Of a DNA stretch of 64,000 nucleotides, positions 15,625 through 50,325 are shown in pieces. Made by a program: the position numbers and the translations under genes. The DNA is taken from assembly GCF_013410875.1 (NCBI RefSeq), contig NZ_JACCCU010000002.1, positions 248,001 to 312,000 on the forward strand, given 5' to 3'. Positions within the stretch are counted from its first letter, which is position 1. Each line of letters begins with the position of its first letter. This DNA comes from Tunturiibacter empetritectus (GTDB taxonomy: Bacteria > Acidobacteriota > Terriglobia > Terriglobales > Acidobacteriaceae). The notes under the pieces were generated by a model. It did no database searches, had not been told where the DNA came from, and worked only from the letters and a program-made list of their open reading frames with translations.

Positions 15625-15811
15625 GTCCTGCCGGACGGGCTCGCGCGAAGCGGTCACTTCGTGACGCGTATACCGGTCTTGGCGAAATGAATCTCGAGGG
15701 TTCTCCCGTTGGTCGAAATCAATCTCTCCCCCGACCAACGGGAGGACCAGCCGAAGGGGTATACAAGTCACGAAGTGACCGCCCTCCGCGCAGGAGGCCG
15801 TCCGGCAGGAC
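15625..15811. repeat. Nested inverted-repeat element, copy A
   Basis: A 187-base element with ends gtcctgccggacgg and ccgtccggcaggac. Inside each end is a small hairpin, then the hairpin gtcacttcgtgac or its complement next to gtatacc/ggtatac. In the centre lies the inverted pair ctcccgttggtcg/cgaccaacgggag. It sits between the convergent M28 peptidase and katA genes. Related copies occur at 22134, 27916, 39289 and 44046. Confidence 0.9.
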
Positions 15812-19499: not shown

Positions 19500-19655
19500 G
19501 CCTTCAGTCTCACAAGGTCGTCTGGCACCGGCTAGGCCGATATCGTCTTTTCGCCTCTGAGACGGGGATGTTGAAAGCATGCACTGCTTGAGTTGCAGTG
19601 GATTCACTGTGCCGGCTTGAAACCGTCACCCAACCCACGGGGGTGTTGCAACTCC
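19500..19655 (-). ncRNA. NAD+-I riboswitch (nadA motif), two tandem domains
   Basis: The nadA leader, read on the minus strand, contains two similar domains. Domain 1 (19655-19590) is closed by GAGTTGCA/TGCAACTC arms and carries GCAACACCCCCGTGG, then GGCACAGTGAATCCACTG. Domain 2 (19578-19500) carries GCTTTCAACATCCCCGTCTC and closes with GTGAGACTGAAGGC. The pattern C-A-A-C-A-x-C-C-C-C-G-U, followed later by a complementary strand, is the hallmark of the nadA motif as I remember it; that class binds NAD+ and is found upstream of nadA in Acidobacteria. The domain 2 3' arm abuts the GGCGGAG ribosome-binding site, so the switch probably acts on translation. Confidence 0.85.
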
Positions 19656-21178: not shown

Positions 21179-22125
21179 CCCGACGCCGACCACTCTTCCT
21201 CGCGCTGCTTCTCGCCTTCCTTGCATCTGCAATCAATGCCCCAAAAGCTAACGCCCAGAGAGCCGCCTCCCCTCAATTCAGCGGACAAGCTGCCTACAAC
21301 CTCACCAAACAGCTCCTCGACGTAGCTCCCAAACGCTTCAACGGCTCTCCCGGACATGCCAAAGCCGAAGAGTTCCTCAAGCAGCACTTCGCCCCCGAAG
21401 CCGCCAAGGGAAACTTCGTCGCCGACACGTTCACCGCCACCACCCCCGCCGGCCTCCAGACGATGACCAACTACATCGCCAAATTTCCAGGCAAAAAAGA
21501 CGGCATCATCGTCCTCGTCTCTCACTACGAGACCAACTACTACCTTCGCGACATCGATTTTTACGGCGCGAACGACGGCGCAGCCACCAGCGCATTGCTC
21601 ATCGAAATCGCCAGCGTCCTCCGAGCCCACCCGCCCGAGGGCTACTCCATCTGGCTCGTCTTTGACGACGGAGAAGAGTCCGTCAGCGGCAAGTGGTCCA
21701 CCGCCGACTCCCTCTACGGCACCCGTCACCTCGCCGCCAAATGGTCCCAGGACGGCACCCTCTCCAAAATGAAAGCTCTCCTAGTCGCCGACATGATCGC
21801 CGACAAGGATCTCAACATTGACTACGTAGAAAACTCCACCCCGTGGCTGCTCGACCTGCTAAAAGTCGCCGCCAAAAACACCGGCCACTCCGCCAGCATC
21901 TTCAAATACCGCGAGGCCGAAGAAGATGATCATCTCCCGTTCGCGGCACGCGGCGTACCTGTCCTCGATGTGATCGACGCCCACTACGGCGCCTTCACCG
22001 CAGCCCTCCCCGACGGCTACCACCACACCGACAAGGACACCCTCGACAAGATCAGCGCCCATTCCCTGCAGATCTCCGGCGACATCTTCCTCGAGATGAT
22101 CCGCTTAATCAACCAGCGCCCCTAA
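21175..22125 (+). CDS. Secreted M28-family peptidase / glutaminyl-cyclase-like protein
   Basis: Zinc-dependent exported enzyme of the M28 fold. The 316-residue protein begins with a signal peptide (MTRRRPLFLALLLAFLASAI, cleavage near ANAQ). Metal-site residues are in place: SHYET, GANDGAA, the Glu pair in DDGEE, VADMIADKD and the late His in GYHHTDKD. The DDGEE and ADMIADKD pattern is closer to glutaminyl cyclases than to classic aminopeptidases, so it may form N-terminal pyroglutamate or act as a peptidase. It overlaps tatC by four bases. Its signal has an RRR run but no clear Tat consensus. Confidence 0.83.
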   Translation: MTRRRPLFLALLLAFLASAINAPKANAQRAASPQFSGQAAYNLTKQLLDVAPKRFNGSPGHAKAEEFLKQHFAPEAAKGNFVADTFTATTPAGLQTMTNYIAKFPGKKDGIIVLVSHYETNYYLRDIDFYGANDGAATSALLIEIASVLRAHPPEGYSIWLVFDDGEESVSGKWSTADSLYGTRHLAAKWSQDGTLSKMKALLVADMIADKDLNIDYVENSTPWLLDLLKVAAKNTGHSASIFKYREAEEDDHLPFAARGVPVLDVIDAHYGAFTAALPDGYHHTDKDTLDKISAHSLQISGDIFLEMIRLINQRP

Positions 22126-22133
22126 AAGATAGT

Positions 22134-22343
22134 GTCCTGCCGGACGGCCCTCCTGCGCGGAGGGCGGTCACTTCGTGACTCGTATACCTTGTCGCGGTGA
22201 GCCGTAGATGCCGGTCCTCCCGTTGGTCGGGATGAAAATCTTATTCCGACCAACGGGAGGGCGCATATCTTTCACTAACCCGAGGAAAGGTATACACGTC
22301 ACGAAGTGACCGCGCCGCGCGTAGCGGGCCCGTCCGGCAGGAC
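22134..22343. repeat. Nested inverted-repeat element, copy B
   Basis: A 210-base copy, the longest. Both terminal arms, both gtcacttcgtgac-type hairpins, both gtatacc blocks and both central arms (cctcccgttggtcgg and ccgaccaacgggagg) are present. The hairpin inside the left end is ccctcc...ggaggg. It lies between the convergent M28/QC-like gene and the DUF3761-like gene. Confidence 0.9.
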
Positions 22344-27915: not shown

Positions 27916-28080
27916 GTCCTGCCGGACGGGCCCGCTACGCGCGGCGCGGGCGTTCGCACGCCTTCTTAAAGCTTCGCGTGGTCCTCCCGTTGGTCGGAAT
28001 CAGCCTCCCTCGCGCCACGCGAAGCGGTATACAAGTCACGAAGTGACCGCCCCACGCGCAGTGGGCCCGTCCGGCAGGAC
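27916..28080. repeat. Nested inverted-repeat element, copy C
   Basis: The shortest full copy (165 bases). Both terminal arms are intact (gtcctgccggacgg, ccgtccggcaggac) and the right half is complete. The left half lacks the gtcacttcgtgac hairpin, and only the left central arm cctcccgttggtcgg is clear. It lies between divergent genes (nadB and aroB), so it cannot be acting only as a terminator. Confidence 0.85.
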
Positions 28081-34477: not shown

Positions 34478-34748
34478 CCCGACTCTCCAATCTTCTTCCA
34501 ACCGGGTTAACCAAATGAGTGACGTTATCGCACCTTCGTCTTAATTTTCTCTCTACCCACTTGAACAACGCCTCAGTTGGTGTAGAGTCGCTTTCGCTCT
34601 TTTGTTTGTCATTCCCGAAGGGAATCTGCGTTTGCAGTTTCTGCACCGTCAGGCGAATTACCATAAGCGCGAGATAATGGCCCATGCCCTCCCTTCCCAT
34701 CGCGATTAGCAGATCGACAGCACCTCGCATTCGAGAGCTCGCTCGATG
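34478..34748. other. Intergenic region upstream of the Na+/H+ antiporter
   Basis: It contains the composite palindromic repeat at 34579-34647, listed separately. Nothing else is supported. Confidence 0.5.
34579..34647 (+). repeat. Composite gtcattcccgaagggaatctgc repeat, copy 1
   Basis: The leader gtagagtcgctttcgctcttttg is followed by tttgtcattcccgaagggaatctgcgtttgcag. It contains two small palindromes, attccc-gaa-gggaat (34611-34625) and ctgc-gttt-gcag (34626-34637). The same unit recurs at 40545 and 50281, and in a diverged form at 44783. Confidence 0.8.
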
Positions 34749-39288: not shown

Positions 39289-39484
39289 GTCCTGCCTGAC
39301 GGACCCACTACGCGTGGGGCGGTCACTTCGTGACGCGTATACCGGTCGTGCCGCCGTCATCAACCAAAGTCCTCCCGCTGGTCGGCCCGAGCATCGCGAG
39401 GACCCAAGCCGCTCATCCCACCAGGACAAGGTACACAAGTCACGAAGTGACCGCTGCCCGCGCAGGGCGCCCGTCCGGCAGGAC
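39289..39484. repeat. Nested inverted-repeat element, copy D
   Basis: A 196-base copy. The left end has one change (gtcctgcctgacgg); the right end is exact. The left inner hairpin is cccac...gtggg, differing from ccctcc...ggaggg in copy B but keeping its pairing. It lies between two genes on the same strand, the TonB receptor and the PASTA protein, and ends 22 bases before the PASTA start codon. Confidence 0.9.
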
Positions 39485-40475: not shown

Positions 40476-40544
40476 ATGCTGGATACTTAATCAGAATTTC
40501 CTTGGAGCAAAAGTAGTAGTTGGGTGAGTCTGCCGTGCCTCTTA

Positions 40545-40570
40545 TTTGTCATTCCCGAAGGGAATCTGCG
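40545..40570 (+). repeat. gtcattcccgaagggaatctgc repeat, copy 2
   Basis: It has the core tttgtcattcccgaagggaatctgcg, identical over this stretch to copy 1 at 34605-34630. It lies 70 bases before the SDR start codon. The gtttgcag hairpin half is replaced. Confidence 0.8.
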
Positions 40571-40639
40571 GTTGCCTTCCTCACACCCACACTAAAATCG
40601 GCTTTTGCCCAGCACAACGCATCGGAGGTTAGCCACCTG

Positions 40640-44045: not shown

Positions 44046-44172
44046 GTCCTGCCGGACGGGCCTCCTACGCGGAGGGCGGTCACTTCGTGACTTGTATACC
44101 TTGTCTCGACAAGTCAACACCCAGGTCCGAGCGATGCTCGGGAAACAAAATCTTACGCCGACCAACGGGAGG
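44046..44172. repeat. Nested inverted-repeat element, copy E (right half decayed)
   Basis: The left end is intact: gtcctgccggacgg, inner hairpin cctcc...ggagg, the gtcacttcgtgac hairpin and gtatacc. The central arm cgaccaacgggagg is present near 44159-44172. Past that, the right subterminal and terminal arms cannot be recognised (only fragments such as gaagcggtc and cacgaagtg). It lies inside the def-fmt operon. Confidence 0.75.
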
Positions 44173-50020: not shown

Positions 50021-50195
50021 ATTCCTCCGGATAAAGAAAAGCAGACCGCCAGCTCGAATAAGCCACAGTCGATAAAAACGTTCTTCTGAGGCCCGTGGAC
50101 CCAAAAGATGACAGATGTAGGTAATGCTGCCGATGTTACCCCAGACTAAGTCGCCGTGCAAACAAAAAAGCCTGCGGATCGTCTATTGCTGAATC

Positions 50196-50285
50196 GGCGT
50201 GGAGTCGCTTTCGCTTTTTTTGCTTGGCGTGGAGTCACTTTCGCTTTTTTGTTTTGGCGTGGAGTCGCTTTCGCTTTTTTGTTTG
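50196..50285 (+). repeat. 30-base tandem repeat, three copies
   Basis: Three copies of ggcgtggagtcgctttcgct followed by ttttttg and a short spacer start at 50196, 50226 and 50256. The second has one change (gtcactttcg). The unit is also found once, diverged, at 34579, where it likewise precedes the gtcattccc repeat. Confidence 0.85.
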
Positions 50286-50325
50286 TCATTCCCAAGGGAA
50301 TCTGCGTTTGCAGTCTCTACACCCA
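50281..50325 (+). repeat. gtcattcccaagggaatctgc repeat, copy 4
   Basis: It reads gtttgtcattcccaagggaatctgcgtttgcag, one base shorter in the loop than copies 1 and 2. It directly follows the 30-base tandem array and ends with the same ctgc-gttt-gcag hairpin as copy 1. Confidence 0.8.

Follow-up and report, generated by a model that had tools for sequence, protein, structure and literature searches.

A skew-oriented intergenic repeat of five mini-hairpins in the Edaphobacter clade, with apparent exchange of whole hairpins between copies

Repeat copies in the window and the hairpin unit

The window analysed here is a stretch of 64,000 nucleotides (G000:C2:248001-312000) of a 5.07-Mb genome (G000) that carries five copies of an intergenic repeat (Table 1). 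The motifs that a sequence-only reading had assigned to the five copies are each present at the position it gave, and its count of four full copies and one decayed copy stands. The nested palindrome described there is, however, not the unit of the repeat but a dimer of two monomers of 82 or 97 nt, and the decay of the fifth copy, which is real, is more precisely the degradation of the right half of such a dimer. Related strains carry elements at several of the same sites. These are dimers with differing arms at copy 1 (G160, G150, G143, and G132), orthologous elements at copy 2 (G160, G150, and G132, with a reduced one in G143), and an aligned orthologous element at copy 4 (G150, G143, G132, and G147, with a rearranged version in G120). 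The head of copy 2 starts 8 nt past the stop codon of a gene ending at 22125. In copy 3, the left monomer (+) has an alternative third hairpin (GGCGTTCGCACGCC) and the right monomer (-) is shortened at the centre; the second hairpin (H2, see below) of this copy is of the CCG type here and of the CCA type in G160, a strain of the same species. The intact left monomer of copy 5 has the tail CCGAGCGATGCTCGG.

Table 1. Coordinates of the repeat copies in the window and of example hairpins
Feature	Position in window	Strand or monomers	Description and basis
Copy 1, dimer, convergent genes	15625..15811		Sequence; monomer calls G000:C2:263625 and 263811
Copy 1, left monomer	15625-15716	+	H2 loop deleted
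Copy 1, right monomer	15731-15811	-	Short type
Copy 2, dimer of two long monomers	22134..22343	22134-22230 (+), 22246-22343 (-)	Sequence, monomer calls
Copy 3, dimer, divergent setting	27916..28080	27916-27997 (+), 28003-28080 (-)	Sequence, monomer calls
Copy 4, dimer of two long monomers	39289..39484	39289-39385 (+), 39387-39484 (-)	Sequence
Copy 5, decayed dimer	44046..44172	Left monomer 44046-44141 intact; right half reduced to tail 44158-44172	Sequence; unit call G000:C2:292046
H1 example, head hairpin	39289..39300	+	Reads GTCC-TGCC-TGAC in copy 4
H2 example, exchangeable hairpin	39305..39317	+	Stem CCAC/GTGG, loop TACGC
H3 example	39322..39334	+	GTCAC-TTC-GTGAC, then conserved GTATACC at 39337-39343
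H5 example, tail hairpin	39371..39385	+	CCTCCCGCTGGTCGG; outer pair switches C-G/G-C

Comparison of single monomers with dimers defines the unit as a chain of five mini-hairpins (H1 to H5) that runs from a head GTCCTGCCGGACGG to a tail CCTCCCGTTGGTCGG and measures 82 nt with a short linker or about 97 nt with a long one. In a dimer, which is the form of all four full window copies, two such monomers are inverted tail-to-tail; the centre measures about 14 nt. H1 (consensus GTCC-TGCC-GGAC) is the best-conserved portion of the unit. H2 consists of three variable pairs enclosing the loop TNCGC, H3 reads GTCAC-TTC-GTGAC or, in a minority of units, GGCGTTCGCACGCC, and H4 takes the form CCTTCGG or GCTTCGC in the short type. 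On the tail side, single monomers seem to stop at a common point near +10, which is only weakly marked. Some units carry an insert of about 45 nt (CACCCCACAAACGAAGACCTGTTTGTGGGGACCCCG) inside the H2 loop (for example, G000:C1:280925, 602884, and 762179 and C2:426259), and paired variation is seen in this insert too (CACGAAC/GTTCGTG and CATAAAC/GTTTATG). Minimal forms also occur: a 46-nt H1-H2-H1' palindrome lies at G000:C1:338879-338924, and the G150 orthologue of C2:345878 retains one H1 hairpin only.

The family is large. The arm GTCCTGCCKGACGG, allowing at most one mismatch, has 257 matches in the 5.07 Mb versus 6 for the reversed control, and GTCACTTCGTGAC-NN-GTATACC has 232 versus none. 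A covariance model returned at least 150 units from the genome, and the family comprises about 200 copies in total. The initial sample of 1.26 Mb, which is about a quarter of the genome, yielded 36 dimers, 49 clean singles, and 10 that carry a remnant, so single monomers are roughly as common as dimers. Within the genus, 38 of 60 genomes have matches to the model, in copy numbers that range widely from 1 upward, as do 6 of 120 in a sample of the family, and no match was obtained outside the family in a sample of the phylum. Hosts include Edaphobacter lichenicola M8US30, M8UP30, and X5P2, Granulicella sp. S190 and L60, and metagenome-assembled genomes (MAGs), among them a Terriglobus. More distant relatives, G066 (L196, L202, L206, and L210) and G101 (L195, L201, L207, and L211), carry related chains built from the same mini-hairpins but with other heads or with none, which suggests a wider modular family in the Acidobacteriaceae. 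No description of the present repeat in Acidobacteria was found in the literature searched.

As had been described for the window, the copies lie between genes. The larger sample adds a strong preference for the first bases past stop codons and for convergent gene pairs. Element ends that face a gene's 3' end most often lie 6-8 nt from the stop codon (29/57 such ends within 20 nt). Among 79 classified clean singles and dimers, 38 sit in convergent gaps, which make up 18% of intergenic gaps, whereas divergent gaps (22%) are avoided (6/79). Genes were called by a simple caller based on codon usage, and individual gene assignments may therefore be wrong. The reported lack of terminal direct repeats extends to the whole family: abutting repeats scored 1.38 versus 1.25 after shuffling (p = 0.29), that is, without a consistent target-site duplication of the type expected of miniature inverted-repeat transposable elements (MITEs). 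Copy 4 is flanked on both sides by AAGATAT, and this 7-nt repeat looks like chance.

Other features were seen in the window as well. A second repeat family, GTCATTCCCGAAGGGAATCTGC, occupies 34572-34635, 40539-40575, and 50189-50311; a 30-bp motif (TTGGCGTGGAGTCGCTTTCGCTTTTTT) adjoins it and forms three tandem repeats at 50189-50280. Two tandem matches to the nadA riboswitch (RF03013) lie at 19500-19653 (-).

Pairing, covariation, and exchange of hairpins

The inner hairpins had been described as varying in sequence while keeping their pairing, and this is borne out: positions 18-28 and 19-27 are Watson-Crick pairs of three types in all 106 distinct units. Covariation was scored by a G-test whose null, as in R-scape, came from redistributing the substitutions over a tree, here one built with FastTree. 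Under this tree-based null, significant covariation was found, and only at Watson-Crick pairs, namely 17-29, 18-28, and 19-27 of H2, 56-62 of H4, and the outer pair 68-82 of H5 (E = 0.03-0.07 for the latter). The named structure has 90.4% of cells paired, compared with 80.4% after shuffling and 32-45% when slid, and its covariation score is 0.261 versus 0.113. RNAalifold recovers H1, H2, and H5 unaided, and an alternative paired form of H1 (GCGC/GCGC) occurs in G034. The left and right H2 types of a dimer are equal in 11 of 32 cases (7.2 expected, p = 0.064). Since they are only a little more alike than by chance, the local hairpins are the conserved structure, and the case for long-range pairing between the arms is weak.

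Folding energy was set aside as evidence of structure or strand, as monomers fold no more stably than is ordinary for dinucleotide shuffles (mean z between about -0.6 and -1.05), and the top strand is slightly favoured by nearest-neighbour models. Neither does an asymmetry between G-T and A-C pick out a strand: departures from H2 pairing are about equally G-T on either strand. The loop motifs cGNAg and cGNNAg are those of unusually stable DNA mini-hairpins. On the bottom strand, the H1 loop reads GGCA in 118 of 122 cases and the H3 loop GAA in 105 of 106, and H5 has tandem GA/GA in 120 of 133. These loops fit the stable DNA motifs, a likeness that is suggestive only and to which the energy models lend no support.

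Comparison of orthologous sites bears on how the covariation came about. Orthologous arms carry different H2 stem types in 16 of 18 pairs compared between species versus 2 of 23 within the species (counting pairs with linkers at least 85% identical; the pairs are non-independent, several coming from one locus). Where the H2 stems differ, they are nearly always fully paired on both sides, while the linkers are 85-100% identical. Copy 4 illustrates this in relatives whose flanks are 89-96% identical: the linker is conserved among the closest of them, and H2 is replaced as fully paired blocks, the left H2 being CCA in the own strain, TCC in both G150 and G143, and CCG in G132, and the right H2 GCC, CTC, CCG, and TCC in the same order of strains. 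About ten types make up nearly all of the H2 pool, which is common to every genome sampled, across species. An apparent ectopic conversion links the copies at 389774 and 390544, with the donor 770 bp away. The most economical reading would be that complete hairpins are exchanged by gene conversion across the conserved H1 and H3, and most of the covariation appears to be of this kind; because whole hairpins would be exchanged, pairing would be kept without stepwise compensation.

The sequence-only reading had taken the compensatory changes as a sign of selection on structure. The covariation itself is real and survives the tree-based null, but the step from there to selection is weakened by the exchange of whole hairpins at orthologous sites, and covariation by itself is no proof of stepwise selection. 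A longer-term constraint on structure is nevertheless likely, because H1, H3, H4, and H5 all vary with their pairing kept. For covariation analysis in general, this calls for caution: where paralogous copies exchange whole hairpins, fixed loci can show strong covariation that withstands a tree-based null although no stepwise compensatory selection has acted.

Orientation of single monomers and the mode of spread

In the own genome, all 45 clean singles tested are co-oriented with the local GC skew, measured over 5 kb on either side of the element (45/45, p = 5.7e-14), so that head to tail reads 5' to 3' on the G-rich strand. Concordance is complete in convergent (23/23), divergent (3/3), and tandem gaps (19/19), and the tandem ones include 6 singles that lie along transcription (6/6) and 13 that lie against it (13/13). 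A slightly different classification of singles gave 46/47, and a held-out set of 20 further regions, picked from match lists without skew information, gave 11/11. Paired or remnant-bearing arms are split 37:36 and genes 411:389 with respect to the skew. In other genomes, where some of the samples overlap or are orthologous, singles are concordant in the named E. lichenicola strains (22/22), Granulicella (4/4), and G160 (7/7); orientation is weaker in the small samples of G143 (7/8), G150 (6/8), and G132 (6/7), and a bias is absent from the Terriglobus MAG (3/6). On the assumption that G marks the leading strand, the G-rich strand would serve as template for the lagging strand; genes, being nearly balanced between the strands, lend this assumption no independent support. 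With GC skew as the proxy, orientation follows replication direction. The skew itself is very strong, about -0.3 over much of the window irrespective of gene strand; along the contigs its sign flips in blocks, and it is near zero in some stretches (for example, C1:25-100 kb).

We consider it rather likelier right than wrong that the element is a REP/REPIN-like, non-autonomous, RAYT-independent DNA hairpin repeat that lies between genes in the Edaphobacter clade, spreads via single-stranded DNA at replication forks, and is reshuffled by gene conversion. IS200/IS605 elements use the lagging-strand template as their insertion target, and their orientation accordingly follows replication (PMC5371812, PMC6006769); the strict orientation of the single monomers suggests a related single-strand route. 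By this analogy, the local hairpins would be what marks the unit for recognition while it is single-stranded, and one template strand at the fork would act as the source or the target of insertion, with an enzyme other than a recognisable Y1/RAYT transposase as the presumed catalyst. Gene conversion among the roughly 200 copies would then shuffle the hairpins and maintain the covariation. A host function would not be required, and tolerance at gene 3' ends would account for the location. This explanation leaves the origin of the inverted dimers unexplained. The mobility of the element is putative; empty-site comparisons are few and have ambiguous flanks (183118, 148591, and 345878). A more specific version, in which a RAYT-independent, fork-coupled element inserts in only one orientation beside stop codons and H2 serves as an exchangeable module of 3 bp whose pairing is preserved by recombination dedicated to, or driven by, the hairpins themselves, is put forward only tentatively and is doubtful.

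Strict orientation could also arise by strand-specific loss of one dimer arm. In this main rival, singles are leftovers of dimers: replication slippage at the large palindrome deletes the arm of one orientation on one template, and dimers are the true mobile unit, as has been proposed for REPINs. Palindrome deletions that leave remnants do exist, as the two minimal forms (G150 at 345878 and C1:338879) attest, and the site 324560 holds a dimer in the own strain and a single of concordant orientation in G132. Clean singles, however, retain nothing of the head that would have been lost, and their ends seem to fall close to one shared, albeit weakly marked, point; copies with a decayed second arm are unbiased in orientation (5:5); singles are no more decayed than dimer arms (0.98 vs 0.97 mismatches, p = 0.79); and site 225035 is a single in all relatives examined. 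We therefore regard this origin of the singles as unlikely, though one to be reckoned with.

Location behind stop codons, the excess in convergent gaps, and the avoidance of divergent ones would also suit a transcribed RNA element, either a set of 3'-UTR hairpins with a role in mRNA protection or termination or a small RNA; the covariation would then stem from selection on RNA structure. This is improbable, as orientation tracks skew and not transcription (in tandem gaps, more than twice as many singles run against transcription as along it, all of them skew-concordant), departures from H2 pairing show no G-T preference for one strand, and folding energy is ordinary. No known RNA family was found: no Rfam family matched at the gathering score, the only hits being sub-threshold microRNA matches.

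Still less probable is a standard REP/REPIN family moved by a RAYT (Y1 tyrosine) transposase. The repeat is intergenic, palindromic, high in copy number, present as singles and inverted doublets, and devoid of a consistent target duplication, and the own genome has two Y1 genes, one of them 3.6 kb beyond the window. These Y1 genes, however, are bordered by other palindromes, and 98 kb of Y1 loci from the genus contain neither head nor H3, with one far tail-like match only. No Y1 match was obtained in four element-rich genomes (G120, G132, G146, and G147, with at least 77 matches to the element each), and the element is missing from G127 and G161, where six Y1 matches occur; a Y1 gene flanked by the element or a co-occurrence of the two across genomes was not found. 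The unit also lacks the unpaired foot of GTAG/GGAG type that lies on the 5' side of the single 20-40 nt hairpin in RAYT-associated REPs. The Y1 (RAYT-like) transposase genes at L031 1462-1923 and L032 1465-1893 are flanked by distinct palindromes of their own, of the CCGGGTGCCCCATCCTTTCGC and GGGCACGGCTTTAGCCGTGCC types. Least probable of all is a polar chromosome-organisation motif whose orientation is selected as a directional signal like KOPS or Chi, which would explain the complete co-orientation of singles in the own genome but not the equally abundant dimers, which have no net polarity, or the patchy occurrence in the genus.

Comparison with known repeat systems

The preferred reading, a RAYT-independent repeat spreading via single-stranded DNA, places the element next to IS200/IS605 elements such as IS608 and ISDra2, with which it shares an orientation that follows replication and, as proposed here by analogy, hairpin recognition in single-stranded DNA. 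Unlike them, it encodes nothing and has no associated Y1 transposase. With MITEs, it has in common that it is short and non-coding and that its dimers have inverted termini; it differs from them in lacking a target-site duplication, and its single monomers have no second inverted end. As for a partner transposon with the same ends, none was recognised in the quarter of the genome sampled, where heads were not seen to bracket a gene (one pair 1,691 nt apart was left out).

REPINs and BIMEs are likewise high-copy intergenic palindromic repeats that occur in inverted unit pairs, look mobile, and are mosaic, and the present element, found as single units and inverted pairs without consistent target duplication, resembles them in these respects. 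Its unit, however, measures 82-97 nt and holds five mini-hairpins, versus one hairpin of 20-40 nt, it lacks linkage to a RAYT, and its hairpins are apparently swapped as blocks between loci. REPIN singlets are decayed remnants (Bertels and Rainey 2011, PMC3116915), whereas the singles of this family are undecayed and skew-oriented.

CGTC-REPs have one 8-9 bp stem and an unpaired CGTC tag and have been listed from other phyla, not from Acidobacteria (Di Nocera et al. 2013, PMC3733652); such a tag beside an 8-9 bp stem is absent from the anatomy of the element. In the same survey, REPs mostly lie downstream of genes, in convergent or unidirectional gaps. CGTC-REPs resemble the element in being REP-like repeats without a dedicated transposase, which for CGTC-REPs has been stated to be an open question (PMC3733652). 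The family described here offers a clean case of it, with a strict orientation pointing to single-stranded DNA at forks and four element-rich strains without Y1 matches, and its close relatives allow the turnover of the element to be traced.
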